Source of the DNA: Deltaproteobacteria bacterium
GTDB taxonomy: Bacteria > Desulfobacterota > Binatia > UTPRO1
NCBI GenBank assembly: GCA_029262315.1
Contig: JAJCZP010000005.1
Coordinates: 1 to 64,000 of the forward strand
DNA: 64,000 nt
Direction of reading: 5' to 3'
Shown here: one piece after another, positions 37,804 to 62,990 of the stretch
Numbering within the stretch: the stretch's first letter is position 1
How the letters are laid out: each line of letters begins with the position of its first letter
Position numbers and translations under genes: made by a program
The notes under the pieces: generated by a model
What the model was told of the DNA's origin: nothing
The model's input: only the letters and a program-made list of their open reading frames with translations
Database searches by the model: none

Positions 37804-38297
37804 TGTACCTTATTATTCACCTCGGCCGCGAGGACGCGGTCGAGGGTGATCTGCGCTTCGAGCCTGTAGGTCCGCCGATCGTCGGGGAGGGTGATGGGCG
37901 TGAACCGCACGCGATCGACCAGCAGCTTCTGCAAAGCGTGGCGCGCCGCGACGACGTCGCTCCGGAGGACTTCGCCGATCCGTCCCAAGTGGTCGTCGAG
38001 CACTCGATCGAGGTGCTCGAAGTCGAGCGTAGTGGCGGGGACGCTCTCGATCGCCCGGATGTCGGTCGTCAGACCCTTCGCGCGCTGCTCCTTCTCTTCG
38101 AGGCGTGTGAGGAGCGCGTCCCGTCCCCGCCCGGCTTCGACAGCGCGAAGGAGATTCTCGATCTTGCGTTCCGTCTTCATGAGATGTGATTTCAGATCGG
38201 GCAGTCGGTCGGGTTTGGCGGCGAGACGCTGGCGGAAAATCTCCCGGGCTCGGACTCCAGTTAGGCCGATGCCCGAGGTGTCGTGCTTTGTCTGCAT
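37785..38297 (-). pseudogene. Large serine recombinase, C-terminal remnant
   Basis: MQTKHDTSGIGLTGVRAREIFRQRLAAKPDRLPDLKSHLMKTERKIENLLRAVEAGRGRDALLTRLEEKEQRAKGL...LLVDRVRFTPITLPDDRRTYRLEAQITL resembles a serine-recombinase C-terminal coiled coil. No resolvase catalytic domain upstream; in-frame TAG just upstream. Confidence 0.7.
37786..37804 (+). repeat. attL-like direct repeat CAAATCCCGTCGGGGACGT (tRNA-Glu 3' end)
   Basis: 19-bp identical copy at 62972-62990. Confidence 0.9.
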
Positions 38298-39091: not shown

Positions 39092-40009
39092 TCATGGCGA
39101 ATGAGCGCGCACCCACGACCTGACCTCTGCAGAATTCGCAATCAGGAAGAACTGGGTAACAAGGTTGCTCGCTGCAAGGAATCGCTCCGGACGCTCTGTA
39201 CGGATCGAGAACTTTACGAAGAATCGGCACGATTGGCGGAATATGTTGCTTGCATCCGTACCATACGTGTAGATGGGTCCAGCCAAGGTCTCGAACTTTC
39301 TATCGGTGAGGCGCCCCCCGCGGAGCAGGGCGGGTAGACCTCGAATTTTTCCCACGACTGTGTCGAAGTGGCCGGGCCACGCTTGTACAGCCTCGATCCT
39401 TGCGTCGCCGATCCTGATCTCGAGGAGCGGCTGGATATGTCCGCTGTCCGTCGCCAGGCATGAGGGCGCACCCTCACCGCGGAGCTTGCGCTTTGCCTCG
39501 TCGAGCGCTTGCCCGGTGGCAACGAGGCGGCGCCTCGTCGTCACGAGCTCCTGGCCCTGGTTGTTCAGCCGATTCCGGGCTCGCGCCAGTCTTCCTTCTT
39601 GCTCCTGTAGCCTCTTCCGCGTCTTGCCGAGCTCTTGATTCTGCTCGTCGAACCTACGGCTCGTTTCTCCCAAGTCGTCGCGAGCGTTCGCCAGAGCCCG
39701 ATCTTGCGCGCCCAGCTTGTCCACAGCCTTGCTGAGCTTCTGCCGTTGCTCGTTCAGTAGTTCTCGGGATTCTGCTACCTCCTGCTCCCGCCGTGTCAGC
39801 TTGTCCTGAGCCTCGCCGAGTTCCTCCCGTTGCTTGTCCAGTTGATCATCCGCAACCCAAAGCTTTCCGCGAAGCTCCGCCAGCTCCATATTCTCTTGAT
39901 CCGACAAGTAGAGGGCTCCGAAGAGGAAGCTTATGGCAAGCAGAAGTACGATAAGCTCGGTCATCGTTGATTCAACGACGTTTGAGCCACCCGAGCCTTG
40001 GTCGTCCAC
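39092..40009 (-). CDS. Membrane-anchored coiled-coil protein, MotB/ZorB-like partner (pair 1)
   Basis: 305 aa. Single TM ESTMTELIVLLLAISFLFGALYLSD, ~140-aa heptad coiled coil, and a globular C-terminal domain (RQSCRFFVKFSIRTERPERFLAASNLVTQFFLIANS). Confidence 0.6.
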   Translation of the reverse strand: MDDQGSGGSNVVESTMTELIVLLLAISFLFGALYLSDQENMELAELRGKLWVADDQLDKQREELGEAQDKLTRREQEVAESRELLNEQRQKLSKAVDKLGAQDRALANARDDLGETSRRFDEQNQELGKTRKRLQEQEGRLARARNRLNNQGQELVTTRRRLVATGQALDEAKRKLRGEGAPSCLATDSGHIQPLLEIRIGDARIEAVQAWPGHFDTVVGKIRGLPALLRGGRLTDRKFETLAGPIYTYGTDASNIFRQSCRFFVKFSIRTERPERFLAASNLVTQFFLIANSAEVRSWVRAHSP

Positions 40010-40019: not shown

Positions 40020-41459
40020 CTACCGGCCACTCCACCACGAGCGTACGGACCTCGTGGCCCGAACCGGCCACGTCACGACATGACGTGCGGTGGCAGCTGA
40101 GCTCTCAACGGCTCGAGTGAAAGCTGCCCGCCAACGCTCTCCGAGCGCAGGTCTCGGCGCAAGTACCCCCGCCAACTTCCCCAGATCATCAAGCGCGCTC
40201 GCGGCGTTCCTGACTGCACCCTCTAGCCCCTCGAGCGATTCCTCGATCTTTTCCCGGAGCAGCCCGGAGGGCACATCGACCGCCTGGATCTTCTCCGCAA
40301 TCGCATCTCGAGGCACATCTACCGCCTCGATCTTCTCGCGTAGCGGAAGATCGATATGGTCCAAGCGTCCCCCGAGCGCACTGAGCGAACCCTCCAGCGC
40401 TTTCAGGGCGACGTTCGCGTCCGCTAGCGCAGATGTCGTGCCTCTCATCGCGGCATTGATGCTCTCCTGCACGACATTCTTCGGGACATCGATTTCGATC
40501 AGCCGCTGCGCGATGCCTTCTACGGCCGTCCCCGTCGATTCGACGTGCGTAGCGAGTCGCGTCAGGCCGCGCTCTGAGCGGTCGATCGCCCGGTCCACAC
40601 CGGAGAGCGTCGTCGCGAGCTTCTCTCGGAGAATCCCTGGTGGTGCTTCAACCGCTTCCAACTTCTCGCGAATGACTCCTTCAGGAATTTCGATCGCGTC
40701 AAGCTTCTCTCGAAGGATGCCGGGTGGTACGTCAAGCTCTTCTAGCTTCTGCCGAACAATGTCGTCGGGAACATCAATCGTTTCCAGCCTCTCGCGGATG
40801 ATGCCGCTCGGAATGTCGACCGCGTCGAGCGCGGAGTTCACGCCTTCGAGACTGCCTACGACCGCCCTCAGCGCTTCATCCGCGCCTTCGAACGCTTGGT
40901 CGATTCGATTGCGGATCATACCTGAGTCGATGTCGATCGCCTTGACCCGATCGGCGAAAGCCTCGACCACACCGGCGATGGTCGCAGTCGTCGCCTCGAC
41001 TCTGTGAGCCAGCTTCTCGCAGCTTGCGGCGAGCCGTTTCTGCGCTTCGGCGACTCGCTCCGGCGCGGGCACGACGAACTGGCGCAGCCACACGCGCAAA
41101 GTGAGACCCACGATCGTGCTCACCAGGGCTATGCCGTTCTGCCCGATGAGGCGCTGCACGAGGCTCGGATCGCGTGTATACAGCAGCAGCGAGATCGTCA
41201 GGGAAACGAGCGTGAAGAGAAACCCCATGTAGTAAAGGCTGTCGGCGAACTGTTGCGAATCGCGCAGCATTGGATCCAGACGCGGCATCCAGAAGTAGTA
41301 CCCGAACATCGTTGCCACGACGAAGCCGGACGCTAGAAGATGTCCCGCTGGTGCGAACATATTGAGCAACGTCGAGCCAAAGGCGCCAATACCCAAGAAC
41401 GCGAGAAAGTAGCGGGCTAACTTGCGGGCATTCGAATTAGGTGCGACTTCTTGTTGCAC
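40020..41459 (-). CDS. Four-TM protein with long repeat-containing cytoplasmic tail, MotA/ZorA-like (pair 1)
   Basis: 479 aa. TM segments YFLAFLGIGAFGSTLLNMF, LLASGFVVATMFGYYFW, LYYMGFLFTLVSLTISLLLY and GIALVSTIVGLTLRVWLRQF, then tandem 14-aa repeats. Confidence 0.6.
   Translation of the reverse strand: MQQEVAPNSNARKLARYFLAFLGIGAFGSTLLNMFAPAGHLLASGFVVATMFGYYFWMPRLDPMLRDSQQFADSLYYMGFLFTLVSLTISLLLYTRDPSLVQRLIGQNGIALVSTIVGLTLRVWLRQFVVPAPERVAEAQKRLAASCEKLAHRVEATTATIAGVVEAFADRVKAIDIDSGMIRNRIDQAFEGADEALRAVVGSLEGVNSALDAVDIPSGIIRERLETIDVPDDIVRQKLEELDVPPGILREKLDAIEIPEGVIREKLEAVEAPPGILREKLATTLSGVDRAIDRSERGLTRLATHVESTGTAVEGIAQRLIEIDVPKNVVQESINAAMRGTTSALADANVALKALEGSLSALGGRLDHIDLPLREKIEAVDVPRDAIAEKIQAVDVPSGLLREKIEESLEGLEGAVRNAASALDDLGKLAGVLAPRPALGERWRAAFTRAVESSAATARHVVTWPVRATRSVRSWWSGR
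40613..40831 (-). repeat. Five tandem 42-nt/14-aa coding repeats ([AT][IV][DE][VI]P-x-G-[IV]-[IL]-R-E-K-L-[ED])
   Basis: AVDIPSGIIRERLE/TIDVPDDIVRQKLE/ELDVPPGILREKLD/AIEIPEGVIREKLE/AVEAPPGILREKLA; more diverged copies toward the C-terminus. Nucleotide bounds approximate. Confidence 0.85.
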
Positions 41460-43356: not shown

Positions 43357-46300
43357 ATGTACACCTTGGTCCTAGTCGGCGGAACCGGGCAGCGCTTCGG
43401 CTTAACGATCGGGCTCCTGAATCTTCTCGGCTGCTGCGCGCTTCCCGACCGCACGGTCATCCTCGACGCCGAGGGCAGTGGCGATACAGCGGGGAACCCC
43501 GTCACCGACGGCGTCGATCAGCTGCTGCGCTGGGGCAAGCCACGGGCCGCGTTCGATCGCGTCCCGCCGTATCCGAAGATCGACGCCAAGGGCGGGGTGA
43601 CGATCGGAAACTGCGTCAGCACCGAACGGAGCGATCTGTTCCCGCTGTGTGTCACCGAGGACGAGGCCCGGAAACCTTTGACGAGCGGTTTCTACGCTAA
43701 TCCGAAGGTAGCGGCCATCGTGTTTCGCGCGTTGGTGCAGCAGAAGGGGAATCGTCTCGAGCAGCTCCTCGGCGCAGAGGGGGCGGTGCCGCCGCAACAG
43801 ACCGTGGTCATCGTCGGCTCGGTGGCCGGTGGGACGGGTGCCGGGATTCTGCGCGAGGTGGCACGCGCGTACGCGAACAAGGGGGCGCAGCGCATCGTCG
43901 GTATCGTGTTCACCAGATACTTCGACCTGGCTGAGGGACGACCGAATACCGAGGATCTCGAGCGGAATGCCAAGCTCGGATGCCAGTATCTGTTGCGTCC
44001 CGAAGGGCGCCGCTGGTTCCAGGCGCTGGCCTTCGTTGGACCGCCGCCGGAGGTGAAGGCGCTCTCGGAGCCCGGCTCCGCTGACGTCGGTGCGCCCCAT
44101 CCGTTCCCGGGGTTCCTCGCGGCGGCCTCACTGCTCTCCGACGGCGGTGTGAGTTTTCTCACCAAGGCGCTCTCGTGGATCGAAACGACCAACAAGGAAG
44201 GGGATCAGCAGCCCACCTACACCGCGGTCTGTGGGGCGCGGAAGGGAGCGCACTACCTGCGCGAGACGGATCTCGAGTTCCCGCTCGGGCAAGAGCAGGC
44301 GCAGGTGGTCCCGGGGGACGTGCTGCGCGACGCGGCGCACCAGGCGCGGATCGAGCTTGGTCGGATGCGAAGCTTCGACTTGACGAAAGCGTCGAGCCGC
44401 GGGGCGTTCTTCGTCCGGACCAAGCTCGGTGAGGGCATCTTCCAGACGCTCAAACGGATCTCTCAGCGCGGGCAAGTAGGCAGCGCGGACATTGGGGTCC
44501 TGCAGCGCGCCTTCTCGGGTAGTGACGGGGTGATCGATTCCACGAGCGCCAGTCTCGAGTGTCTACGCGGGTGGTTGGGCGAGATGGGAGACCCCGGAAA
44601 ACGCGGCGGGCTAGAGCTGGCAGCACGGAGCCCGCTTCTCCGCCGCGGAGCATGGCGAGAATCCTTGGAAGTGCTCTCGGAGGTGGAGCAGGTACCGCAT
44701 CGGCGGTTCGCGGAGGTGTGGTGCCGGCAGGTCGGCGGAGCACAGTGGCGATCACGGCGGGCCAGTGAGCACGACACGGGCGACTCGCGATTGTTTCCGT
44801 ATCTCGCCGCGGGGGCCGGCACGATGCCGGCGTCCGGCGTGTTCGAGCGTTGCGACATCGAGCCCGAGCAGATCGTGCTGCCGAACGACGTCGCCCACCA
44901 GTCGTTCCCATCCCCATTTGGCGGAGCGCTTGCTTTCGACACCCAAGTCAGAGCGAGACGCGGCGGCACGGAAGCCACCGCCGAGACGCTCTGGTTGGCA
45001 TTGGCGATCGGATGGCTCGACCTTCGAGTGCTCGACCTCCGTCGCTCGCAGAGCCCCTTCGACGGCTTGGCGGCAAGCATCGAGGACCGTGCGCGCTTCT
45101 CCGGACTGCTCCGGGTGCGATTCCGGGCCGGTATGCCGGAGTCCCTGCGTGTCCTGGATGGGAAGCTCGTCGGTGCCTCGCATCCCGAGTGCGGGCTCTG
45201 GCCCGGTGTCCGCGCCGGCCAGCAGAGCATCATCGCCAAGCTCCGCGAGCAGATGACGGAGTTGGATCGGCAGCGCGGCCTCGCGGTAGTGGCGCGGTGG
45301 GCGACCCTGATCGAGGATCGTCCCGACGATTCGACCGATCGCTCAACTCCTTCGTGGGCCCTTGTCGTTAATGCGCTGCTTGCCGACGCGCCTGCGCCGG
45401 CCTCACTCGACGACGTGCGAACGGTGGGACCGATCCTTCTTCGATTGCCGGCGGTGGGCGCAGCGCTTGACGTTCCCATGGTGCTGCTGAGCTACGAGCA
45501 ACATCGCGGTCTCAAGGTCGACGGGTATCTCGCAACGCGTCGCCGCGGCGCCGCTGCCGATCAGGGCCCAAGGCTGACCAAAATCGCCACGGAAGGCGTC
45601 GAGACCAACGTCGTCGAGACGTTGGCTGCCGGCTACCTGCATTGGGACAGCAGCGACGCACCGATCGTTCCTGCCGCACCTGAGGACGTCGTCGCCGGTC
45701 GTGTCGCGTTGGACATCGATCGCGACATCGTCGACGCGCTCGATCTCGATCCGGAGACAAGTGCCGGGCCAGCTTCCGCGCGCGTCCCGGATCTTCTCTG
45801 GGATCGTCCACAGCATGGGGGGCGGCGGTTCGCGGAAGTGCCGTCGGAGCCGTCGGCCGGCGAGTCGGCACTGCCGTTCTCCGATCTCGGAGCCGTGCCG
45901 GGTATCTTCTACCATCGAGCCCGCGCGCAGTGGATCGTGTGGCTGCATCACGAGACGTACAACAGCGCGTCGCCGGTAAGGCGTTCGCTGCAGGATCCTC
46001 AGGTCGTCGAGGTGCGCGATTGGCTCCTGCGTTTTCCGGAGAACACGAAGTTCCTGGAGATTCCCGAAGTGCTGCTCTCGAGGGTGCTCAGCCTCCGGAG
46101 CCACGACGGGGCGGTCGTGCATCCTGCTCTCCCGGTAAAGCAGGAGTTCGTCGATCTCGTGGAATGTACCGGCGTAGTCGCCGCGGGACAGCCGCGTGGC
46201 GACGGCCTGAGCTTCACGATTCGTTTCGTCGGCGGCGTCACGAGCCAAGTCTCCATTCGCGAGACCAACGCGGTGATCGAGGAGCGGCTGCACGTCGAGG

Positions 46301-48072
46301 TGTGGCCGAAGGTCGACGCCGCGAGGTGGCAGCGGTTCTGGTGCGTAGTCGAGACCGACGCCGCGAAGGACTTTCGCGAGCTCCGCGTCGCGGTATTCGC
46401 GTGTGATGCTGGGGCCGGTCACTACTCGCTCGAGCGCCACGAGTCGGGGGCGGGGTGCTACTCCGTTGGCCGGAGGCCTCGGCTGCTGTGGCTGGGCAAC
46501 GCCGAGCGCGGCGGCGGCTTCGTGCTGTTCGACTCGCCGGGGGCGGACGTGACGGGCGAGCATCCCGCGTCGATCGGCATCGACTTCGGTACCTTCCGGA
46601 CCACGGCCGTGGTGAACGCCGTCGGTGCCCGAGGCATCGTTCCCGAGAGCGTGGCCGAGTTCTCGACCGTAGGGCTCGTCATCGCGGACCAAAGTGAAGG
46701 GAATGCGAGTGCATGGGCGGGGGATCGAGATCTCTTGCCACGCATTTCCGATCCCGGGAAAGCTTACGACGGCATGGTGGCGGCCACGGTGTTTCCGACG
46801 GCGGTGTCGTTCGCCGAGAAGGCGCCGCCGAACGATGCGTCGATGCCGTTCGAAGACTACGGCATTCCCTGGCGCTACTTGTGGCAGCTCGATGCGAAAG
46901 GCGGTCTCAAGTGGGCCGACGACCGTTTGACCAGAGATGCGCGGCGGGCCTTTCTGCGGGCGCTCCTCGTCCTGGCCGTGGCAGAGGCGTGTGGGCGCGG
47001 TGCCAATGAGATCGCGGTGCGCTACTCGTTTCCTCTTGCGATGGACCAGAACACACGGAGCCGGCTGGACGAGGACTTCCAAGCTGCGGCCGGATGGCTG
47101 AAGACCAACGTCGGATCCGCGTTGAGCGTACTGCCACAGTTTGGAGCGTCGGAGTCCGAGGCCGGGATCACCGCCGCCGAGGGGGACGGTACCTGGGTTG
47201 CGACACTGGATTTGGGCGGCGAGACTCTCGACCTCGGCTTGTTCTCGCAGGGCGAAGGTTACGTGCGCGAGCCGCTCGCGTGGGAAAGTGTGCGTCTCGG
47301 CGGCAACCTCGTTGCCGAGGCTCTCGGGCGACGCCAGCGGTGGGACGAGAAGTTGCGACGCTTCAAGGTCATGGGTCCGATCGAGCCCAGCCCCGAGGTG
47401 AAGGACGATGTGACGCGGTTGATGCTCGTAGCGCTGGAATACGCCGCCCGGTTTCTGGCGGGGAAGGTGGTTGCCGCGCCCGGCGACGGGCCGGAGGGAC
47501 GGATCGATGTCGTCCTGCTCGGCAGCGGGTGGCGTTGGCACCGAGTACTGTCGACGGAGGAAGCCGACGGCTTCGGCGCCGACATCTTCCGACACGGGTT
47601 GTTTCAGGGGTTTTGCGATCGGGTCGGCGAGTTGGCGGACGGGAAGCTCAAGGCCAGTTTGACGCTCAATACGCGCCTCCTGGAGAAGCAGCGCGAAAAG
47701 AAGGCGGTAGCGCTCGGCAATGCCATGCGCGATCCGACGGACAAGCCGACGCATACGTCCATCGAAGCACCCAACGGGATCGACGAACCGACCAAGCCGT
47801 GGTGGACATCGATTGGCCCCAAGATGGCTTTCGGCAATCCTGACCACTTGAATCCGTCTCCAGACTTTCCGGCGAGTTTTCCCGAGCGTTTGCGGAAAGC
47901 GGGCCCTGGGGCCTTGCTCGAGGGCTCCGCGGCGCGGAGCGTTCTCAGCACCGCGTGCAGTCGATTGCGATCGGCGACACACAACGGGTTTCGCGCCCGG
48001 ACGGCCATCAGCGTGGTCTACGAGCTGCTGAAGAGCGAGTGGTTCCCGCAGGGCGGGAACGGCGACCACTGA
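43357..48072 (+). CDS. Tubulin/FtsZ-like (Tubulin_2-type) domain fused to Hsp70/actin-fold ATPase domain
   Basis: 1571 aa. N-term MYTLVLVGGTGQRFGLTIGLLNLLG and VVIVGSVAGGTGAGILREVARAYANKGAQRIVGIVFT. C-term phosphate-1 IGIDFGTFRTTAVVN (~aa 1073), phosphate-2 VATLDLGGETLDLGLFS (~aa 1281), adenosine VVLLGSGWRWHRVL (~aa 1386). Confidence 0.75.
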   Translation: MYTLVLVGGTGQRFGLTIGLLNLLGCCALPDRTVILDAEGSGDTAGNPVTDGVDQLLRWGKPRAAFDRVPPYPKIDAKGGVTIGNCVSTERSDLFPLCVTEDEARKPLTSGFYANPKVAAIVFRALVQQKGNRLEQLLGAEGAVPPQQTVVIVGSVAGGTGAGILREVARAYANKGAQRIVGIVFTRYFDLAEGRPNTEDLERNAKLGCQYLLRPEGRRWFQALAFVGPPPEVKALSEPGSADVGAPHPFPGFLAAASLLSDGGVSFLTKALSWIETTNKEGDQQPTYTAVCGARKGAHYLRETDLEFPLGQEQAQVVPGDVLRDAAHQARIELGRMRSFDLTKASSRGAFFVRTKLGEGIFQTLKRISQRGQVGSADIGVLQRAFSGSDGVIDSTSASLECLRGWLGEMGDPGKRGGLELAARSPLLRRGAWRESLEVLSEVEQVPHRRFAEVWCRQVGGAQWRSRRASEHDTGDSRLFPYLAAGAGTMPASGVFERCDIEPEQIVLPNDVAHQSFPSPFGGALAFDTQVRARRGGTEATAETLWLALAIGWLDLRVLDLRRSQSPFDGLAASIEDRARFSGLLRVRFRAGMPESLRVLDGKLVGASHPECGLWPGVRAGQQSIIAKLREQMTELDRQRGLAVVARWATLIEDRPDDSTDRSTPSWALVVNALLADAPAPASLDDVRTVGPILLRLPAVGAALDVPMVLLSYEQHRGLKVDGYLATRRRGAAADQGPRLTKIATEGVETNVVETLAAGYLHWDSSDAPIVPAAPEDVVAGRVALDIDRDIVDALDLDPETSAGPASARVPDLLWDRPQHGGRRFAEVPSEPSAGESALPFSDLGAVPGIFYHRARAQWIVWLHHETYNSASPVRRSLQDPQVVEVRDWLLRFPENTKFLEIPEVLLSRVLSLRSHDGAVVHPALPVKQEFVDLVECTGVVAAGQPRGDGLSFTIRFVGGVTSQVSIRETNAVIEERLHVEVWPKVDAARWQRFWCVVETDAAKDFRELRVAVFACDAGAGHYSLERHESGAGCYSVGRRPRLLWLGNAERGGGFVLFDSPGADVTGEHPASIGIDFGTFRTTAVVNAVGARGIVPESVAEFSTVGLVIADQSEGNASAWAGDRDLLPRISDPGKAYDGMVAATVFPTAVSFAEKAPPNDASMPFEDYGIPWRYLWQLDAKGGLKWADDRLTRDARRAFLRALLVLAVAEACGRGANEIAVRYSFPLAMDQNTRSRLDEDFQAAAGWLKTNVGSALSVLPQFGASESEAGITAAEGDGTWVATLDLGGETLDLGLFSQGEGYVREPLAWESVRLGGNLVAEALGRRQRWDEKLRRFKVMGPIEPSPEVKDDVTRLMLVALEYAARFLAGKVVAAPGDGPEGRIDVVLLGSGWRWHRVLSTEEADGFGADIFRHGLFQGFCDRVGELADGKLKASLTLNTRLLEKQREKKAVALGNAMRDPTDKPTHTSIEAPNGIDEPTKPWWTSIGPKMAFGNPDHLNPSPDFPASFPERLRKAGPGALLEGSAARSVLSTACSRLRSATHNGFRARTAISVVYELLKSEWFPQGGNGDH

Positions 48073-48090: not shown

Positions 48091-48924
48091 GTGGGTAGCC
48101 TAGTTGATTTCTTGCTGTTCCTCGGAGGCATAGGCGCCGTTGCCTGGCTGTTTGGGAAGAGTCACGAGACCGCCGGTAGGCTCGCTCTGATGGTTGACGC
48201 CGAGTTCGGCCGGCTGGGCAAGCGCGTCGACTCGCTGCGCGACATGCTCACGGAACACCTGGCGAGAGGCAGCTCCGAAGATGCCGAAGGCGCCTCGCTA
48301 GTGGCGGCTTACGAGGAGGCCTCGCGGGCGATCGACGATCTCCGGTCGCGGCTCGGCACATTGAGCGCACGGCTAGAAACCCTTGAGAAGCAGCTCGGCG
48401 ACGTCGAGATGGAGCGGGGAATTCCAGCGCCAACACTGCCAGCCGCTTTTCCCCGGATGCCCGTTGCGCCGGTGTCGAAGCCGGCGGCCCCGACCGTAGC
48501 CTGGTCGAGCGCGAAGGGGCCGGATGATGCGATGCTCGCGGCCCGATGGAGCAGTTGGTACGAGCAGCGGATGGATCTCCACCGCGACGGGGAAGCGTGG
48601 AGAGAACTCAGAGAGACCTTCCGCTCGTTGAAACTGGACGTTTTCGATCTCGGCGGGGCCTTCGTTCTGGTCACGTGGCTAGGGCGGGATGGTGTCCGTG
48701 AGTTCCGCATCTTCCCAAAACTCGGCAAGAGTCTGGAATCGTACGACCGCGCGTTCTTTTCCGGTGACGATCCGGACGCGACCGTGCGTCGGGTCGTTGC
48801 TCCCGCTCGGATCGAGTCGAAGAGCGGAGACATCGACCTCAAAGGTACGGTTCGCCTGATCAAGAGCGGCGAGCTGCCGCCCGAATCGGCATTCCGGGTT
48901 CTCGAGAAGGGTCGACTCACATGA
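48091..48924 (+). CDS. Membrane-anchored coiled-coil protein of unknown function
   Basis: 277 aa. N-terminal TM DFLLFLGGIGAVAWLF, coiled coil, then conserved-looking domain LKLDVFDLGGAFVLVTWLGRDGVREFRIFPKLGKSLESYDRAFFSGD. GTG start. Confidence 0.65.
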   Translation: MGSLVDFLLFLGGIGAVAWLFGKSHETAGRLALMVDAEFGRLGKRVDSLRDMLTEHLARGSSEDAEGASLVAAYEEASRAIDDLRSRLGTLSARLETLEKQLGDVEMERGIPAPTLPAAFPRMPVAPVSKPAAPTVAWSSAKGPDDAMLAARWSSWYEQRMDLHRDGEAWRELRETFRSLKLDVFDLGGAFVLVTWLGRDGVREFRIFPKLGKSLESYDRAFFSGDDPDATVRRVVAPARIESKSGDIDLKGTVRLIKSGELPPESAFRVLEKGRLT

Positions 48925-50393
48925 AGATCGCCCGGCGCGTGATGGCAGCGCTCGTCGCGTGCATGCTCCTGCCGGCGTCGGGGAGGGCCGACGACCCTGC
49001 AGTCGCGGTAGCGGTCGACCTATCTGTCAGCATGCGTGGGTTCGCTGCCACGGGTGCCATGGAGCGGGTGCTGCTCGATTTCGCCCGCGCGGTCGACTCG
49101 ATCGAATCGTTGCGCGATGCCTCTGGGCGTTCGCCGCAGAAGGAGTACTTTGGCGTCGGGCCGGAGACGGCCAAGCTGCCGTCCGTCACCCATCTATGGA
49201 GGGGCCGGGGCGCGGCGTACGGCAAATCCCGCGCCGATCTCGAGAACGCACTGCGGAGCGATAGCCTGCGCGCTGCCACGGTGGCGGCACTGTTCACCGA
49301 TGGTCAGCCGAGTGCCACCCGCAAAGGGCTGACAGCCCCGTGCGAGCCGGGCGAACGGCCGACGTTTCGTGAGCTTCAGGGAGTGATTCAAGGGCTCAGG
49401 CGCGAGGGCCGTCCGGTGTGGCTCCTGCTCGAGAGGGTCTCGTTCCAGGGAACGATCTTCCTCAATTGTGGGAGTATGAGCACCGTGCTGAAGCAGCAGT
49501 CGGATCCGGGCATCAAGTGCCGACTGGGCGGCGAATGTCGGGCGGAGCGCGCCGGCGAGCGTGCGATGCTGACGCTCCTGGTCGGCGCGCCGCGGCAGCC
49601 GGAGCTGGTGCGGATGGTGGTGGCGGCATACTTGGACCAGCGCCTGCAGGCTGATGGCGATGCCGTCGCCATCGATCTCGCTGGCGCGCCTCCAATGTGG
49701 AAGGCGCTCGAGTCGTCCACCAAGGGATGGCTCGCGACGTCCACGATCGAGGGATCGGGCGTGCCCGGCAGATCGAACGTGCGGGTACGTTGTCACGAGC
49801 GTTCGCTCCGCGACCAGGGTCCGTCGGCTGCCCGCATTCGCGTGGCGGCGACGCGACAGACGTTCCGGGACGGCATGCTGGCGCTCTGGGACGCCGGCGT
49901 GCCGCGAGCGCGGGTGCTCCACGGCGGCACGGACAAGCGCCTGCACCTGCTGGGCGAGTTCGGCTTCGAGCGCGAGTTTCTGTTGCAGGAGGGAGCGCCG
50001 ACGTTGGAGGGTTCGTGTACCGCGGCCTGGAATCGATACGAACGCTACTGGCAGCGGGAGCGAGAGCGCGGCGCCGAGGTGCCCGTACCCGCCGGGTGCG
50101 GTGGTCACGACACCAGCTGGTGTGCGGATCTTCTCGCGCTTTGCGATTGCGGGCGCCCGCGTGAGACGTCGGCGACGATCGTCGTCGCGCACCGGGTCGT
50201 TCCGCGGGCACGCGCGGTACGTCGGGCGCTCGAGCGCGAGGGTCTGGCCGTCGATCACGGGGCGAGCTGGCTGGCGCAGCTCGAGCGCATCGAGGGCCTG
50301 GGTGGTCTGATCGAGGCGCTGGGGCGCGGCGAGCGGCCGCGGCGGATGCTCCAGGTCCTATCGGTTCGGGTGGTTCCAGCGGGTGCGAAGTAG
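48921..50393 (+). CDS. Exported VWA (von Willebrand A)-domain protein
   Basis: Signal peptide MKIARRVMAALVACMLLPASGRADDP, then MIDAS motifs AVAVAVDLSVSMRGF and VAALFTDGQPSA; overlaps the upstream stop (ATGA). Confidence 0.72.
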   Translation: MKIARRVMAALVACMLLPASGRADDPAVAVAVDLSVSMRGFAATGAMERVLLDFARAVDSIESLRDASGRSPQKEYFGVGPETAKLPSVTHLWRGRGAAYGKSRADLENALRSDSLRAATVAALFTDGQPSATRKGLTAPCEPGERPTFRELQGVIQGLRREGRPVWLLLERVSFQGTIFLNCGSMSTVLKQQSDPGIKCRLGGECRAERAGERAMLTLLVGAPRQPELVRMVVAAYLDQRLQADGDAVAIDLAGAPPMWKALESSTKGWLATSTIEGSGVPGRSNVRVRCHERSLRDQGPSAARIRVAATRQTFRDGMLALWDAGVPRARVLHGGTDKRLHLLGEFGFEREFLLQEGAPTLEGSCTAAWNRYERYWQRERERGAEVPVPAGCGGHDTSWCADLLALCDCGRPRETSATIVVAHRVVPRARAVRRALEREGLAVDHGASWLAQLERIEGLGGLIEALGRGERPRRMLQVLSVRVVPAGAK

Positions 50394-50407: not shown

Positions 50408-52129
50408 ATGCTGAGCGCCTTACACCTCCCCTTCTTCTTCACGTTGCTGGCCGGCCTGATCTTCTGGGCGACGCGACGGACCCGGGAGGGCTGGAGGACA
50501 CTTGCCGAAGATGGTCGTCTCCTGGAGACGGCGCTCGGCGAATCCGAGCCGTTGGATGACCAGGAGGCAACGGAGGACCGTCCGCGGCCGCTGAATCTGC
50601 CCCGGTTTCTCTGGACGTTGTCGCAGAGCCGCTCCGGTCAATCACTGATCTCCGCGGCGGAGGCCAGCGCTCTCTACGAGGGCGAGCTCGCTGACGTTAC
50701 CGACGATCTCTCTCGCATCGCGAACCTCAGTCTGCTGACGGGCGTGTGCGGCACGCTGACAGGCATGCTGCTGGCGATTACGCGGCCGGGCGCGACCTCG
50801 GACATAGGCGTTGTGCTGGGGGAGGCGGCGGGCGCGTTCATTGTAACGGTCATCGGGATATTCCTTGCCGCGGCGGTTACTGTCGTCCAGGCTGTTCTCG
50901 CGCGGAGGATCGCCGCGAACTCCGAGCGGGTCGCCCTCGTATGGACGGCGATGGTCGCGGCAACTCCCCTTGGGTCCGGAGTCGACCGGAGCGCGCGTGT
51001 CTCGAAGCGCACCATCGAGGCCGTGGATACGGCGCTCGTCGAGATGCGTGGCCTGCTCGACAGCATCCCCGGGACCGTCCGTGATCAGGAGGAGGCGTTC
51101 CGGACGAGTCTCGCGCAGGTGTGCGAACGCTTCGAGGGGACTCTTTCGACGGCGCAGGGGGCCGTCGTCATCGCGACACAGCAGCGTGAGGAGGCGCAGA
51201 GCGCACTGACCGGCACGCTGCAGAAACTCGACGGAGATGTCGAGTCGGTGCGCCAGGATATTCAAGGACTCCAGCAGCTCGTCAAGACTCATGAAAACAT
51301 GGTGGCATCTATCGAGGCGGCTGCCACCACCATGCGCGCCGTGTCGAACGAGGCGCTGACCAGTCAGGAGCAGTACGTCAAAGTGCTCCACGGCCTCCGC
51401 GACGGGTTCAAGGAGACAATGGCGGCAACGCAGCGCGACCTTGGCAGCCTGAAGCAGCAGATTGGCGAGTTGGGGCGGCAGCATGCCGAGTTGCTGCAGG
51501 CGACGACACGTCAGCTCAGCAACGAGATCTCGACGCTGCTGAAGACCAACTTCGAGCAGCTGAGCCGCGTCGAAGAGGAACTCTTTCAGCAGCTCATCAA
51601 TCTCAAGAACCTGGCACCGGGAGTACGCGACGCGATCGACACGATCGAGCCCGGAGCGACGGCGGCGAGCGCCGCCATCAAGGTGCTGTCCGAAACGTCG
51701 GTCACGACCTCGACGGAGGTCGAGGCCAGTCTGCAGCGTGTGCAGCAGCGTCTCGAGGGTGTGGGAGACGAGTTCGAGCGCAGCTTGGGCGCTATGCGGG
51801 AGTCGGTGACGCGGGTTGGGACCGCCGCGCAGGATGCCATCAGGGCGACCGGTGAGAGCGTGCAGGACACGTTGCGGTTGACGCGTTGGGTGCTCGTTCC
51901 CGGCGCTGCGTTCGCGGTGCTGTGGATCGCGTGGCTTGCGGGGTCGTCTTTCCTCGAGGCCGACGAGCCGCTTGCCGTCGTGGTTGATCCGATGCCCGCG
52001 GCAACGGTTGATCTGCCCGCGATTGCGCTGCCCCCGGGTCCGAACGAGGTCGCTGTACAACCGACGCTCCCCCTGGCGGTGGCGACTCCCGAGCGCGATG
52101 TCCTCGAGTTCTCGGAGGAAGAGCGCTGA
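50408..52129 (+). CDS. MotA/TolQ/ExbB proton-channel family protein with long coiled-coil tail (ZorA-like; pair 2)
   Basis: 573 aa. SLLTGVCGTLTGMLLAITRPGATSDIGVVLGEAAGAFIVTVIGIFLAAAVTVVQAVLARRI matches the ExbB/MotA core; ~300-aa coiled coil; extra C-terminal TM. Confidence 0.85.
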   Translation: MLSALHLPFFFTLLAGLIFWATRRTREGWRTLAEDGRLLETALGESEPLDDQEATEDRPRPLNLPRFLWTLSQSRSGQSLISAAEASALYEGELADVTDDLSRIANLSLLTGVCGTLTGMLLAITRPGATSDIGVVLGEAAGAFIVTVIGIFLAAAVTVVQAVLARRIAANSERVALVWTAMVAATPLGSGVDRSARVSKRTIEAVDTALVEMRGLLDSIPGTVRDQEEAFRTSLAQVCERFEGTLSTAQGAVVIATQQREEAQSALTGTLQKLDGDVESVRQDIQGLQQLVKTHENMVASIEAAATTMRAVSNEALTSQEQYVKVLHGLRDGFKETMAATQRDLGSLKQQIGELGRQHAELLQATTRQLSNEISTLLKTNFEQLSRVEEELFQQLINLKNLAPGVRDAIDTIEPGATAASAAIKVLSETSVTTSTEVEASLQRVQQRLEGVGDEFERSLGAMRESVTRVGTAAQDAIRATGESVQDTLRLTRWVLVPGAAFAVLWIAWLAGSSFLEADEPLAVVVDPMPAATVDLPAIALPPGPNEVAVQPTLPLAVATPERDVLEFSEEER

Positions 52130-53037
52130 GGCGCCGCTCCCGAGGAATCGAGGTCTGGCCCGCTCTCGCGGACATGATGGCGGGCATCGCACTCCTGCTC
52201 GTCGTGGCCTTTCTTGCGACGAGCAGCGTCCTGAGCGGCAGCAAGGGGGAGCTGGAGGATCTCCGCCAGGAGCAGGAACGGTTGCTGGCGGAGACCACGG
52301 CATTGCGTGAGCGGGAGCGCCTCAACGGCAAGAGCGACGAAGAGGTTCGAACCGATCTCCTCGCGAGTGCGCACCGGGTCCGCGAGCTGCTGAGCCAGCT
52401 CGAGGCGGACAAGAGACGCATTGAGGCCCTTGAGCGTCGTATCGCAGAGGCCGGCGGCTACGAGGACCGCATCGGTGTGCAGCGGAGCTTGGTACGTCTC
52501 GTCGCCGAGGAGTTGACGCGCGCCGGGGTGAGCGTCGACATCGACGAGGACACTGGGACGCTGATCGTGCCGGACAACGTTCTGTTCAAGCGGCAGAGTG
52601 CGACGTTGCCGGCGTCGGGCCGCCGACGACAGAAGGTCCTCGATATCGGCCGTGCCATCGTGAAGCTGCTGAAGCAGGAGGAGTCCGCGCGGAAGATCGC
52701 TCGTATCGAGGTGAGCGGCCACACCGACAAGACCGGCGGCTTGGCGCTCAATCTGCTGCTCTCTCGCGCTCGTGCGGGCGCGCTCGTCGATGCGTGGGTG
52801 CGGAGCGCGCGTACCACCGATCCGTGCATCGTCGGTAAGCTGTTGCCGGTCGGGATGGGCCCGAGTCGCCCACTGATCGCCGACGAGTCCGCAGCAACGA
52901 ACGCGCGCTGCGGCGACGAGCGGGATCGCCCCGAGACTCGTATTGACGAGAGCCGCGGGTGCGCCCGGAACCGCCGCATCGAGATCTCGATTCTTCCGAA
53001 GGATCCGACGCGTCCCGAGATTCCGGGATGCCCATGA
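52126..53037 (+). CDS. OmpA/MotB-family protein (ZorB-like; pair 2)
   Basis: IEVWPALADMMAGIALLLVVAFLATSS (TM with MotB-like Asp), coiled coil, OmpA domain IEVSGHTDKTGGLALNLLLSRARAGALVDAWV...NRRIEISI. Start codon uncertain (CTG at 52126 or ATG at 52174). Confidence 0.85.
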   Translation: MRRRSRGIEVWPALADMMAGIALLLVVAFLATSSVLSGSKGELEDLRQEQERLLAETTALRERERLNGKSDEEVRTDLLASAHRVRELLSQLEADKRRIEALERRIAEAGGYEDRIGVQRSLVRLVAEELTRAGVSVDIDEDTGTLIVPDNVLFKRQSATLPASGRRRQKVLDIGRAIVKLLKQEESARKIARIEVSGHTDKTGGLALNLLLSRARAGALVDAWVRSARTTDPCIVGKLLPVGMGPSRPLIADESAATNARCGDERDRPETRIDESRGCARNRRIEISILPKDPTRPEIPGCP

Positions 53038-53181: not shown

Positions 53182-53709
53182 ATGAAGATTCAGACGATCT
53201 CGGCATGGGTAGCCAGCGTGGTCTTTGTCGCCGCGGTGGGTTGCGATAGCGGCAACGGAGCAAGGAAGATCGATACGGCGACGGCTCCCGCACAGGCGGT
53301 ACAAAGCCCGGAGGTCGGTCGACCGCTCGAAGGAAAATTCGCCTCGGCGGAGCTCTTCGGTGAGACGGGTGCATCGCCACGATGGGGCAGCGGATGGATC
53401 GACCTCGCGAGTTCCATCAACGTCGCGGCAGGCGACCGACTCCGACTCAAGATTGGCGGGACGGCTAAGAAAGTCGTGGTGCGGTTGCTACCGCTTGGCG
53501 GCGATCCGAATACGTCGTTCGGCGTGGTCGGCGGCGTCCTTGTAGTTCCGGCGAATCGGGTCCTGGAGGTGCCAATCGAGGGGGCGCGCGAAAACATCGT
53601 GCAGATCTCGGTGCACGGTCGCCAGAATCCGTTTGGGAAGTTCCCGCTCGGGGCCAACAACGGCCCGGCAAGCATCGAGAACGCCGTTCTTCTCAGAGCC
53701 GTTCGGTAG
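53182..53709 (+). CDS. Small lipoprotein
   Basis: 175 aa. Lipobox-like VFVAAVGC-DSGNG. Confidence 0.6.
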   Translation: MKIQTISAWVASVVFVAAVGCDSGNGARKIDTATAPAQAVQSPEVGRPLEGKFASAELFGETGASPRWGSGWIDLASSINVAAGDRLRLKIGGTAKKVVVRLLPLGGDPNTSFGVVGGVLVVPANRVLEVPIEGARENIVQISVHGRQNPFGKFPLGANNGPASIENAVLLRAVR

Positions 53710-53720: not shown

Positions 53721-54137
53721 ATGATCTCCCTGCCGCTCTTTATCGCGATCGCCGGCCTGGCGGTTTCTACGGGCGCGTTCGTCTATGTGATCGTCGACAG
53801 CTTCGGCGACGCGTTCGGAAAGCGCCGCACGGCAGCGCTCGCGGCGATCGCTACGGCGCTGATCTTTCTCGGAGTGCTCAGCGCCATCGCTGCTAACAAC
53901 GAGTATTGGCGACAGCGGAACCTCACCAGGCTCGGGACCCAGATCGTCAGTGCGTTGGCGGCGCGCGACATGTCTGCGGAGGAGATTTTCATTCGCTTTC
54001 TGGGCGAGGACCCCGCTGCCGTCAATACAGCCCTGGTTCGCGCACAATCACACGGCGTCGTCAGTATCGATCAGCACTTCTTCCTGACATCGGGCGGCGC
54101 TCAGCATCTCGTCCGCATCTACGGGGTGCCGCGCTAG
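53721..54137 (+). CDS. Small 2-TM protein with C-terminal helical (possibly winged-helix-like) segment
   Basis: 138 aa. LPLFIAIAGLAVSTGAFVYVIV and AALAAIATALIFLGVLSAIAA; ORF follows the lipoprotein closely. Confidence 0.6.
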   Translation: MISLPLFIAIAGLAVSTGAFVYVIVDSFGDAFGKRRTAALAAIATALIFLGVLSAIAANNEYWRQRNLTRLGTQIVSALAARDMSAEEIFIRFLGEDPAAVNTALVRAQSHGVVSIDQHFFLTSGGAQHLVRIYGVPR

Positions 54138-54665
54138 CGGTCACACGCGGCTTCGAGTGCGACTCGGTTTTCAACAGCCGCTTGACGGGTCGAGATGTGC
54201 CTCTCGGTTTCGGCGCTGTGGTTGGGGTGTCGGTGGGGCGAGGGTGTTGCCTAGCTTTGGCGCTCCGGGCTGTTCGCAGGGTCACGCTACGTCGTCGCGT
54301 TCCGGGCTCGTTGCTGATCGGCAGGTCCCCGCGAAAGATGACCTTGCTGAGGCAACCAGCGCGACGGCCGTGTGTCAATATGGATCAGCGGGTAGGGGCG
54401 TCGAGGAGCGCGTGCAGGGAAATATGCTGAAAGAAGCACACGCGAGCGTTGCCACTCCGCCCGCGCTTTCGTAGGGTAGCCCCTCTCCTGGATGCGATCG
54501 CCGTTCGCTTTCGACTCCACGGATCTCCTTCTAGTCCATCAAGTCCATGAGCGGTGTAACGCTTACTCTTCAAGCGGCATTGGCGCGTGACCAGAGACGC
54601 GGGGCGCGAGTCATCATTCGCGTACCTTGGTCCAGTGTGGCAGCGCTCGAGGAGTTGCTCGTTTG

Positions 54666-55754
54666 ATGGGTTCCAGCACGGTGAGGACCCCGCTCGACAG
54701 CGACCGTCTCGAAAGCACGATAGGATGGATTCGCAACGGCGGGATCGCCATCGTGCTCATCCTTGCACTTGTGCATGTAGGGCTCGAGTGGGGTGCGGCA
54801 GAAAGCCCGGGGCAAGGCCCGGCTTCGACGACTCCCGAGTCAACGGCGGAGTCGTCAGCAGACGTAGGATCGAAGGCGACGGGCGAGGCGGGCAAACCCG
54901 AGCCGACCGGGCTTCGCAGTGCGCCGGTCCGCTTTGCGAAGGAGCAGCTACCGTGGTGGATCGTGAGATTGGGACTGGCCCACATGCTGTTCTTGACGTT
55001 GATTACGCTGATGTTCGTCCAGAAAGGCAATCCGTATCAGCTGAACAACATCGAGCTCGGACGCCTGCATGCGATGGCGGGATATCTCCACACACTCATC
55101 GGTGCGCTCGGGGCGATCAGCGTCGGGGCTTTGGGGGTGGCGAGAGGGGCCCCCTCGGATGAGGCACTCGGAGCGATGCTCTTCTACGTCGGGCTCGCGC
55201 TGTCGACCAGTATCGTCGGGTGGTGGGCTGGGAGCGAGTTCCAGCGAAGTTCTCGTGGCGCGACCCAGACAGAGAAGCCCGAGGAAAAGGCCGAGGCCGC
55301 TAGTTGTGCATCACCCCGCTCGCAGGCTGCGCTCGCCGAGTTAGAAGAACTGAAGACTCTACTCTCCGGTCTGCACGCGAAGCTCGATGCGGAGGCGAGT
55401 GCCACTGCGACCTGCTGCGAGAAGAACGAGGCTCATCTCGCGACCATGCGGCGAGATCTCGATGCGCTCTGGCGGCGGGTGCGCGCCGAGGGACGGAGAT
55501 CGAGGGTGCATGCCTCGAGGGAACGCGCACGGGCCGTTGCGCAGATGAGACAAGCCCTGCGCGAGCACACCGAGGACGCACGGCGAGCCTGTGCGGAGAA
55601 GATGGAGCGGATTCAGCGCGATTTCGAAGCGACGACACGACACCAGAGTAGAAAGTTCCAGAAGGCCATGAAGGCGTGCGTCAAAATATTGAAGGAGGCC
55701 GCCGACATTCTTTCGGGCATGCGGTCGCGGGGGCAAGGGCCCGAGAATGAGTGA
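54666..55754 (+). CDS. Multi-TM protein with C-terminal coiled coil (MotA/ZorA-like layout; pair 3)
   Basis: TM segments GIAIVLILALVHVGLEWG, LGLAHMLFLTLITLMFVQ, LHTLIGALGAISVGALGV and MLFYVGLALSTSIVGWWAG, then ~170-aa coiled coil. Confidence 0.6.
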   Translation: MGSSTVRTPLDSDRLESTIGWIRNGGIAIVLILALVHVGLEWGAAESPGQGPASTTPESTAESSADVGSKATGEAGKPEPTGLRSAPVRFAKEQLPWWIVRLGLAHMLFLTLITLMFVQKGNPYQLNNIELGRLHAMAGYLHTLIGALGAISVGALGVARGAPSDEALGAMLFYVGLALSTSIVGWWAGSEFQRSSRGATQTEKPEEKAEAASCASPRSQAALAELEELKTLLSGLHAKLDAEASATATCCEKNEAHLATMRRDLDALWRRVRAEGRRSRVHASRERARAVAQMRQALREHTEDARRACAEKMERIQRDFEATTRHQSRKFQKAMKACVKILKEAADILSGMRSRGQGPENE

Positions 55755-56421
55755 GCAGCCGGCCGACGTCGACGTTGCGATGCAGTCGGAGATTTTCGTC
55801 GTCTTGGCGGTCGTGTTCAGCCTCCTTGCGGCGGTCGCGCTGCTGTCCTCTGACGGGAGGCCCGAGCAGATTACGATCTACGAGGCGACCGTCCAGAACA
55901 TCACCACTCAGGCCTTCACCCTAGACCACAAGCTGCTACGATTCGAAAGTAGGGACTATGAAATCCCCATCGATGCGGCAAAGAAGGCGTACGCGTGGGT
56001 CGAGCGCTGCGCCAAAGTGTGCGGGAGCGACACGCTAGAGGTAGTGGGGCATGCCGACCCAATTCCTGTCGGCAGTTTGAAGCACCCGAGCATCGACACG
56101 GCGCTGAACCGCTATGCGAATCGTGAGGATCATCCGCCACTCGAGTTCCATTCCAATTTGGTGCTTGGCCTGGCTCGAGCGCTCTCGTTTGTTCGGTACT
56201 TCGAGAGCAAGCGGGAGGGCACCTGGTTGTCGAAGATGAACGTGCGGCCCTATAGCGCGGGTTCCATGGTCGAGAACGGTGATCGTGATAGGGCGGGACA
56301 GGTCGTGGAGGATCCGACGCGGAGGAGGATCGAGCTCCGATTGAGCTGGGATGGCGACCCGCCGAACGGAGTGGATGCCGAGGAAATGCGAGTGGCTTGC
56401 GCGGAGAATGTCGAAAGCTGA
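55747..56421 (+). CDS. OmpA/MotB-like protein (pair 3)
   Basis: TM EIFVVLAVVFSLLAAVALLSS; OmpA-like LEVVGHADPIPVG...SNLVLGLARALSFVRYF...VRPYSAGSM...DPTRRRIELRLSW; 8-nt overlap with the upstream gene. Confidence 0.7.
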   Translation: MSEQPADVDVAMQSEIFVVLAVVFSLLAAVALLSSDGRPEQITIYEATVQNITTQAFTLDHKLLRFESRDYEIPIDAAKKAYAWVERCAKVCGSDTLEVVGHADPIPVGSLKHPSIDTALNRYANREDHPPLEFHSNLVLGLARALSFVRYFESKREGTWLSKMNVRPYSAGSMVENGDRDRAGQVVEDPTRRRIELRLSWDGDPPNGVDAEEMRVACAENVES

Positions 56422-57683
56422 TGGAGGGGCTGTTCGCGTCCGGCGCGTCAAGGGCTGCGGCGGGGCGGTCGTGGGCCTGGGGGGTGACGTGGGGCATTGC
56501 CGCGGTCGGCCTGATGTCGTTCCTCGCCGGAGCGGGTTCGACAGGTGCCTACGGCTCTGGCGATCGTGTGACGCTGATGGAGCGAGCGCTGCACATTCCA
56601 GGGCATCCGTCTCCAGGTGTCGACACGGTTTCGACTCGCTTCCGGAGCGGATCACTGGCGACCGTGTTGGCGGTGGATGCGCGGAGCGGCTGGCTCCAGA
56701 TTCGTGGAACTGCGAAGGATGGCAGCGCGGCGACGGGGTGGATCGTACGGCGCTACGTGCAGAGTCGCAGCGGGCGCGTTGACGGCTGGGCGATTCCGCT
56801 CGTGGCGTCTGATCTGACGTGGTGTCCTCCGCGTGGGTCGTCGGAGCCGCACCCGAGTGGTCGGTTGCGAATCGCCACGTGGAACCTCCACAATTTGCAC
56901 GCCAAGGACGGCGGCGCCGTCTATGGCCCACCTCGTCCCTCGGTGCGACGGAGCGCGACGGACTACGAGCGCATCCGCTGTTACGTGCGGATGTTCGATG
57001 CGGACATCCTGGCGGTGCAGGAGGTGGATGGGACGGCGGCGTTGCGGCGCGTGGTCGATGCGGAGGTGTACGATGTCGCGGTGTCCAGTCGTCCTCGCCC
57101 CCCGGGCATGGGGGGAAAGCAGAACACGGGTTTTGCGTTCAAGAAGGGATTGGACGTACGCAGGCGTCCGGATTTCAAGGCGCTGGCGTTTGGGAGCGGG
57201 AGGCTGCGCTACGGGACGAGGATCGACGTGCGGGTGAAGGGCCGCACGTACCAGTTGATGAGCGTTCACCTGAAGAGCGGGTGCTTCGGCGGAGAATCCA
57301 GCGCCCGAGCGTGCGACGTGTTGCGAGAGCAAATACCCGTACTTGAGCGCTGGATCGATGCGGCCGTAGCGGCACAGACGCCGTTCCTCGTGCTCGGCGA
57401 TTTTAACCGACGCTTCAATCTTCCCGGAGACGATCTCTGGGCGACGCTCGACGACGGAGTCCCTCGTGGGCTCGATCTCACCACGCTGACGGAGAACATG
57501 CCGATCAGCTGCAGGGAGAACAAGTTTGCATCCTTCGTCGACCATATCGTACTGAATGCCGATAGTGCGAAGATGATCGACCGTACCTCATTTCGGCACA
57601 TCACCTATCGACAGCAGGACCGTGCGCAGTGGGACAGGATCTCGGACCATTGTCCGGTCGTGGTCGAGCTGTGGCCGGAGTGA
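56421..57683 (+). CDS. Endonuclease/exonuclease/phosphatase (EEP) family protein with N-terminal signal/TM and SH3-like domain
   Basis: LRIATWNLHNLH, ILAVQEVDG, MSVHLKSGCFGG, LVLGDFNRRF and ISDHCPVVVELWPE are the EEP motifs. N-term WGVTWGIAAVGLMSFLAGAG. ATG overlaps the upstream stop (TGATG). Confidence 0.9.
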   Translation: MEGLFASGASRAAAGRSWAWGVTWGIAAVGLMSFLAGAGSTGAYGSGDRVTLMERALHIPGHPSPGVDTVSTRFRSGSLATVLAVDARSGWLQIRGTAKDGSAATGWIVRRYVQSRSGRVDGWAIPLVASDLTWCPPRGSSEPHPSGRLRIATWNLHNLHAKDGGAVYGPPRPSVRRSATDYERIRCYVRMFDADILAVQEVDGTAALRRVVDAEVYDVAVSSRPRPPGMGGKQNTGFAFKKGLDVRRRPDFKALAFGSGRLRYGTRIDVRVKGRTYQLMSVHLKSGCFGGESSARACDVLREQIPVLERWIDAAVAAQTPFLVLGDFNRRFNLPGDDLWATLDDGVPRGLDLTTLTENMPISCRENKFASFVDHIVLNADSAKMIDRTSFRHITYRQQDRAQWDRISDHCPVVVELWPE

Positions 57684-62971: not shown

Positions 62972-62990
62972 CAAATCCCGTCGGGGACGT
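62972..62990 (+). repeat. attR-like direct repeat CAAATCCCGTCGGGGACGT
   Basis: Identical to 37786-37804; a duplicated tRNA-Glu 3' fragment, not a full tRNA. Confidence 0.9.

Follow-up and report, generated by a model that had tools for sequence, protein, structure and literature searches.

A predicted tubulin-like/Hsp70-like fusion protein in a deltaproteobacterial operon with a putative ZorAB-like motor

The fused open reading frame and its two domains

The window analysed here is a stretch of 64,000 nucleotides from a Deltaproteobacteria bacterium (Desulfobacterota; Binatia; UTPRO1; assembly GCA_029262315.1, contig JAJCZP010000005.1, positions 1 to 64,000). On its plus strand lies an open reading frame (ORF) at 43357-48072, which is predicted to encode two nucleoside triphosphatase (NTPase) folds in one protein, and which is followed on the same strand by genes for membrane motor subunits and a nuclease. 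The ORF has 1571 codons in an uninterrupted frame, with a G+C content at third codon positions (GC3) of 0.79 and a Shine-Dalgarno-like GGAGG 12 bp 5' of the ATG. Along the protein we distinguish a tubulin/FtsZ-like domain (residues 1 to about 448; 43357..44700), recognised from Pfam, hhalign and a split homologue, a fusion junction or linker (about residues 449-478; 44701..44790), a middle region (44791..46446), and an Hsp70/actin-type ATPase domain (residues about 1031-1571; 46447..48069), recognised from hhalign, a PDB profile search and motifs. The preliminary description of this stretch had reported a single open frame with NTPase landmarks at both ends; the frame indeed reads through without a break, and the landmarks were found again when their positions were recomputed. 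Two relatives, in the genomes G058 and G103, carry the two halves as separate genes, and together with the window protein make up the three homologues compared below.

The tubulin signature follows the pattern [SAG]GGTG[SA]G. In the window protein a T1-like loop, VGGTGQR, occupies residues 7-13 and the T4 loop, GSVAGGTGAG, residues 154-163, of which AGGTGAG (157-163) fits this signature. Both the T1 and the T4 (GGTG[S/T/A]G) loops by which the tubulin/FtsZ superfamily is recognised are present, and the T4 signature is kept in all three homologues. Pfam Tubulin_2 (PF13809) matched the window protein with an E-value of 2.1e-4 (21.1 bits); two of the three members of the N-terminal family match Tubulin_2, and all three match PF00091. 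In hhalign comparisons of three-row profiles of the family with sets of FtsZ, Tubulin_2, DnaK, HscA and MreB from genomes of the same class, the N-terminal block matched FtsZ (E 1.1e-4) and Tubulin_2 (E 1.3e-4), with no match to DnaK or MreB (E > 0.4). In a PDB-wide profile search the N-terminal family had 13 matches, 11 of them to FtsZ (best E 0.2), and in a Foldseek search of the N-terminal model FtsZ chains took ranks 1-12, none significant, which gives weak corroboration.

At the C-terminal end the phosphate-1 motif IGIDFGT lies at residue 1073, phosphate-2 (TLDLGG) at 1283 and the adenosine motif (VLLGSGW) at 1386, to which we add two motifs that had not been listed before, connect-1 (SESEAG at 1265) and connect-2 (AVALGNA at 1450). 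All five Hsp70/actin motifs occur in order in the window protein, in both homologues and in DnaK, those of the host's own DnaK being at 6, 170, 192, 333 and 366; none of the three homologues has lost the acidic residues of phosphate-1, connect-1 or phosphate-2. This five-motif ATPase core is shared with Hsp70/DnaK, MreB and FtsA, and the spacing from phosphate-2 to the adenosine motif in the G058 Hsp70-like protein is like that of DnaK. In hhalign the C-terminal block matched the DnaK ATPase domain (E 3e-5), HscA (5.4e-5) and MreB (4.8e-4), with no match to FtsZ (E 0.37). The PDB-wide search with the C-terminal family returned 11 matches, ten to DnaK/Hsp70 and one to FtsA (best E 0.042), and in Foldseek Hsp70-type ATPase domains took ranks 1-23 with the C-terminal model, again none significant and again weak corroboration. 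A weak match in genome G034, found with the Hsp70-like profile, proved to be DnaK and not a new locus, which favours the fold assignment. A DnaK-type substrate-binding domain was not recognised in the window protein family by Pfam or PDB searches, and the Hsp70-like family carries a long N-terminal extension without a known fold.

The profile matches centre on the T4 loop at the N-terminal end and on the connect-1/phosphate-2 region at the C-terminal end. When the alignment columns were shuffled 25 times per hhalign comparison the lowest E-value was 0.05, against about 5e-4 to 3e-5 for the real alignments, and among 20,000 residue shuffles of the 1571-residue protein one placed the tubulin signature within residues 1-400 and none produced the chain of actin-type motifs. 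The profile comparison of the two ends, a kind of check that had been proposed, leaves neither of them empty, with FtsZ/Tubulin_2 at one and DnaK/HscA/MreB at the other. The earlier suggestion that one ORF product holds both NTPase folds is supported by these end-specific matches and by the split homologues, and we consider it very likely that the two folds co-occur.

Several points weigh against these assignments. Every single E-value is modest, the best in the PDB searches being 0.2 (N-terminal) and 0.04 (C-terminal), so that the argument lies in the agreement across independent, specific searches. The Tubulin_2 score of 21.1 bits is below the curated gathering cut-off of 27 bits. Neither the window protein nor its homologues match the Pfam HSP70/actin models, the similarity to Hsp70/DnaK, MreB and FtsA being found by profile-profile and PDB-profile methods only. 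The AlphaFold models, built from two-row alignments, have predicted local distance difference test (pLDDT) values of 33 and 30 and are unusable for confirming the folds. In addition, T6 and T7 of the tubulin domain, including the T7 synergy loop (NxDxxD), are not identifiable in the alignments of the three homologues, which makes GTP hydrolysis and polymerisation by this domain doubtful; nor could the C-terminal activation domain that serves polymerisation be recognised in them. Polymerising, or cytoskeletal, behaviour of either half may at most be called putative.

That T6/T7 are not identifiable would also suit a protein that serves as a scaffold only, its two NTPase folds being there but inactive, as would the phosphate-2 loop, which reads DLGGETLD and not DLGGGTFD, and the loss from the window copy of a CxxC...CPxH motif of the middle region. 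The T4 signature and the acidic positions in phosphate-1, connect-1 and phosphate-2, conserved in 3/3 homologues, point the other way, and we regard a dead scaffold as improbable.

Split homologues, fusion junction and distribution

In G058, the metagenome-assembled genome 'Deltaproteobacteria bacterium isolate BP6.bin67', region L013 holds a tubulin-like gene of 489 residues and an Hsp70-like gene of 1124 residues that overlap by 4 bp, and in G103, recovered through a profile search, genes of about 474 and about 1090 residues overlap in the same way; both genomes belong to the class of the window genome. In BLASTP, the window protein aligns to the G058 tubulin-like protein with 24% identity over 284 residues (E 1.4e-7) and to the Hsp70-like protein with an E-value of 9.5e-11, the homology to the Hsp70-like partner starting at about residue 479. 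Since 489 and 1124 residues together come close to 1571, and since the Hsp70-like homology starts at about residue 479, the window gene appears to consist of two genes joined. The presence of the halves as separate, adjacent genes in two relatives argues for a fusion product and not for a chance pair of motifs, and of all the evidence obtained it is the strongest. On this comparison of sequences, the window protein is a natural fusion of an FtsZ/Tubulin_2-like NTPase gene and the neighbouring gene for an Hsp70/actin-type ATPase of roughly 1100 residues.

The middle region is collinear with the N-terminal half of the G058 and G103 Hsp70-like proteins and matched none of the families tested by hhalign. 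About 800 residues had initially been described as unassigned; this holds roughly for residues 400-1050, most of which, as judged from the split homologues, fall within the Hsp70-like protein, towards its N-terminus. Both split Hsp70-like proteins (L013:8131-11502 in G058 and L024:7685-10954 in G103) carry a zinc-ribbon-like CxxC...CP(K/R)H motif in their middle, at about residues 257-295 in G058, and it is this motif that the fused protein has lost.

The junction at 44701..44790, placed by alignment to the gene ends of G058 and G103, lies where stop and start overlap in the split homologues, and it is here that a reading as two separate proteins has to be weighed, either because the single frame would be an artefact of assembly or base-call indels, or because an internal start would bypass the fusion. 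Both relatives are split, with stop and start overlapping in different frames, an out-of-frame GTGA occurs around 44765, close to the expected gene boundary, and the source genome is a draft of 298 contigs. Codons about 401-480 are weak in every frame, so that the junction codes weakly, which also tells against a single polypeptide. However, frame 0 has the best codon-usage score over codons 441-480 (about -2 to 0), whereas frame 2, which leads to the GTGA stop, scores about -12, and the homologous stretches before and after the junction share one frame, so that a double frameshift would take a pair of indel errors spaced by about 100 bp; from the codon scores we judged such an artefact unlikely. 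No internal start with a Shine-Dalgarno-like sequence was seen near residue 480. Two separate products are unlikely, and we hold with good confidence that the ORF would yield one polypeptide.

The family is rare, with three loci in about 148 genomes of the class when proteins or profiles were used as queries, and in the family of G058 only G058 and G103 carry the locus. No further locus was found in 395 sampled genomes of the phylum, searched also with the Hsp70-like and vWA profiles, or in viral contigs and plasmids, searched also with the split Hsp70-like family, and a second scan of genome contigs returned the G058 record only. The full window protein as a direct query gave no useful match in PDB, plasmids or GTDB contigs. 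Apart from the Tubulin_2 and PF00091 matches, NCBIfam and Pfam name neither the fused protein nor its homologues, and we found no description of a tubulin-Hsp70 fusion in the published literature searched. Divergence is fast, with 24-28% identity between loci. The G058 operon is flanked by a serine recombinase with DUF2924 and by a DDE transposase, and on the 3' flank of the window cluster there is an rve integrase. Such neighbours, together with rarity and divergence, are the pattern of an accessory, mobile and fast-evolving system. The host genome also has FtsZ, DnaK, HscA-like and MreB-like genes elsewhere; given its own FtsZ and DnaK-type proteins, the window cluster represents an accessory system.

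L014 and L016, two operons of the classical Tubulin_2 kind from this class, were considered as parents of the family and rejected, as they have other partners and lack the motor and Hsp70. A further genome (G117) contains two tandem diverged tubulin-like genes with GLGGGTGSG loops (L015:8091-9680 and 10116-11768); this tubulin-like pair seems to stand in another context, next to genes of CobW-like, nickel-transport-like and amidase-like type.

Motor and partner genes of the operon

After the NTPase genes, 3/3 loci share the same order, namely a transmembrane (TM)/coiled-coil protein, a vWA-like protein, a MotA/ExbB-like protein, a ZorB/MotB-like protein and a nuclease, all on the plus strand in the window. 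The preliminary description had not remarked on this operon, which tells more than the fused ORF does. The first (48091..48924), with a single N-terminal TM helix and a coiled coil, occupies the same place in the three operons. The vWA-like protein (48921..50393) has by eye a signal-peptide-like N-terminus and carries metal ion-dependent adhesion site (MIDAS) motifs, DxSxS (DLSVS) at 33 and TDG at 126, which are also present in G058 and G103; Pfam VWA matched neither the window nor the G058 protein.

The MotA/TolQ/ExbB-ZorA-like protein (50408..52129) matches Pfam MotA_ExbB with an E-value of 2.5e-6, above cut-off in both the window and G058. It has three TM helices and a long coiled-coil tail, the window copy with an extra C-terminal TM helix, and it matches PADLOC ZorA1 weakly (4.6e-5 in the window, 5e-4 in G058), mostly in the tail. 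The MotA/ExbB core and the long cytoplasmic coiled-coil tail that characterise ZorA are both found. The ZorB/MotB-like protein (52126..53037) contains an OmpA peptidoglycan-binding domain (Pfam OmpA 1.8e-9), recognised by Pfam also in G058 but not in the G103 copy, and matches PADLOC ZorB1 with 5e-17 in the window and 3.5e-11 in G058. Its TM helix holds the channel aspartate expected of ZorB (LADMMAGIALLLVV), present in 3/3 loci, and its N-terminus aligns to MRRRAEGGFGEIWVVVADVML of G058. In the same frame, the sequence from CTG 52126 reads LRRRSRGIEVWPALADMMAG, which matches MRRRAEGGFGEIWVVVADVM in G058 and EIWVVVADVF in G103. The first in-frame ATG, at 52174, would cut off the conserved TM aspartate; CTG 52126, which overlaps the stop of the preceding gene (CTGA), is the probable start.

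The last of the shared genes encodes in the window an enzyme of the endonuclease/exonuclease/phosphatase (EEP) family (56397..57683; Pfam Exo_endo_phos 9.2e-11) with a hydrophobic N-terminus and four intact motifs (TWNLHN, VQEVD, GDFNR and SDHCP), in the place taken in the G058 and G103 operons by a PLD nuclease with HxKxxxxD. Its export is suggested by eye and unsupported by the TM scan. Taken together, the motor genes can be assigned with considerable confidence to a predicted ZorAB-like motor, and the operon quite probably acts as one functional unit.

Between motor and nuclease the window has further genes on the same strand. Two are window-specific, for a small lipoprotein-like protein (53182..53709; lipobox-like VGCD by eye, no Pfam match) and for a small protein with two TM helices by TM scan (53721..54137). 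They are followed by a possible, weakly supported second motor-like pair (54627-56421) that is not present in G058 and G103, consisting of a multi-TM and coiled-coil protein (54627..55754; weak ZorA1/ZorA3 matches at E 0.025, TM scan) and its partner, a TM protein that is OmpA-like by eye (55747..56421; TM scan, no Pfam or PADLOC match).

Relation to known systems, possible function and surroundings

ZorAB is a 5:2 ion-driven motor that depends on peptidoglycan binding, on ion flow and on the ZorA tail; in the Zorya model the motor senses the envelope and the tail recruits a nuclease (PMC11890865). The operon described here resembles Zorya in its MotA/ExbB-like subunit with a long coiled-coil tail, its ZorB-like subunit with channel aspartate and peptidoglycan-binding domain, and its nuclease. 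In contrast, tubulin-like, Hsp70-like, vWA and TM/coiled-coil genes stand in place of ZorC/D, ZorE or ZorF/G, and the nuclease is a PLD or EEP enzyme that looks exported in the split loci.

On the tubulin side, the nearest published neighbours are the FtsZl1 operons, which combine tubulin-like, vWA and OmpA proteins and for which a membrane-remodelling role was inferred (Makarova and Koonin 2010, PMC2875224). The likeness extends to a diverged FtsZ-like N-terminal domain with recognisable T1 and T4 but no clear T6-H7-T7, to the vWA and OmpA-domain neighbours, and to the patchy distribution. Unlike in FtsZl1/Tubulin_2 proteins, the window tubulin domain is below the Pfam cut-off and is followed not by a coiled coil or helical C-terminal domain but by an Hsp70-like partner, fused or adjacent, and the window operon has a MotA/ExbB partner and a terminal nuclease, with no GTPase or protein kinase found. 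We did not assign the operon to Zorya or FtsZl1, because for each of them tests of defining features came out negative; it is a member of neither, and its combination of genes is undescribed in the literature searched.

This likeness raises the question of whether the system serves defence at all, or rather membrane remodelling or envelope maintenance of the FtsZl1 type, in which the diverged tubulin, vWA and OmpA proteins would reshape membranes or make vesicles. Besides the predicted remodelling by FtsZl1 operons (PMC2875224), the envelope is where motors of the TolQR/ExbBD type mostly act, and there is a proposal of vWA-motor force transducers (PMC12204202). On the other hand, a nuclease with intact catalytic motifs closes each operon, the patchy occurrence, fast divergence and recombinase/insertion sequence neighbours suit a conflict system, and the class has classical FtsZl1 operons (L014, L016) whose gene content differs, with neither motor nor Hsp70. 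An envelope role of this kind is rather unlikely in our view, though likelier than the other alternatives.

A second comparison is with the GTPase-centred conflict systems of Kaur et al. 2020, among which tubulins and HSP70 are placed (PMC7159879). There, tubulin homologues, HSP70 and vWA proteins occur in related neighbourhoods, as in the present case, and their operons include TRAFAC GTPases (GAP1-N2), so that the window operon could be a variant whose tubulin and Hsp70 proteins would act as effectors by assembling once the cell is infected. In those systems, though, these are separate genes and largely separate themes around TRAFAC GTPases with FNIII proteins, and neither motor nor nuclease belongs to the systems as there described, whereas the window has one polypeptide and a ZorAB-like motor; by Pfam, the window and G058 operons contain no P-loop GTPase or FNIII protein. 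Membership in this group is quite unlikely.

The explanation that we favour, and hold to be probable with some reserve, is a membrane machine based on an ion-driven motor of the ZorAB-like kind, anchored to peptidoglycan, in which the fused protein would be the switch on the cytoplasmic side. This explanation starts from what can be read in the sequence: two folds recognised by profile similarity, the split homologues, the gene order, the MotA/ExbB-like and ZorB-like subunits, the MIDAS and the terminal nuclease. The exported vWA protein, as an envelope-side ligand binder, and the peptidoglycan-binding ZorB-like subunit would sense envelope damage caused by phage or other DNA entry, and ion flow through the motor would then move the long coiled-coil tail. 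The tail may contact the tubulin-like/Hsp70-like protein and bring about a change of nucleotide state or assembly on site, and by analogy with Zorya this protein could be the relay from tail to effector, after which the cognate nuclease (PLD or EEP) would cut DNA at that site. The fusion would set the two NTPases at a ratio of 1:1.

A role of the operon against phages or other mobile genetic elements is plausible, if just short of probable. The fuller proposal, in which both folds in one polypeptide form the switch of a new ion-motor envelope defence machine that deploys a nuclease, with their nucleoside triphosphate cycles coupled mechanically to each other and to the motor, is tentative. Against it stands that only three such loci are known. 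No PADLOC match to ZorC/D, ZorE or ZorF/G was obtained among the operon genes scanned. Zorya nucleases are cytoplasmic, but those of the split loci look, by eye, exported; an exported nuclease would imply that DNA is cut at or outside the inner membrane, unlike in Zorya, and makes DNA-uptake or envelope roles possible.

Tubulin-type and Hsp70/actin-type NTPase folds have been treated as separate lineages with separate polymers, and a fusion with split relatives side by side offers a handle on how the two types of switch may act jointly. The ZorAB-like motor, in turn, suggests that envelope sensing of the Zorya type could serve further systems besides the three types of Zorya now recognised, the module in the cytoplasm being swapped.

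Around the cluster, a divergently placed pair on the minus strand (40020-41459 and 39092-40009) encodes a TM/coiled-coil protein of 479 residues with a weak ZorA1 match, followed by one of 305 residues, and is possibly another motor-like pair. Directly downstream on the operon strand, 58474-62835 encodes a multi-TM protein of 1453 residues, with no match in Pfam, PADLOC or NCBIfam. Two short minus-strand ORFs (37785-38297 and 62917-63246), without Pfam match, flank the cluster and share 41 residues at 49% identity; they are perhaps remnants of one recombinase family that mark the borders of an island. Finally, a HerA-like helicase on the minus strand (18014-20539; PADLOC mad8 E 5e-12, HerA 4e-11) possibly belongs to another defence locus in the window.
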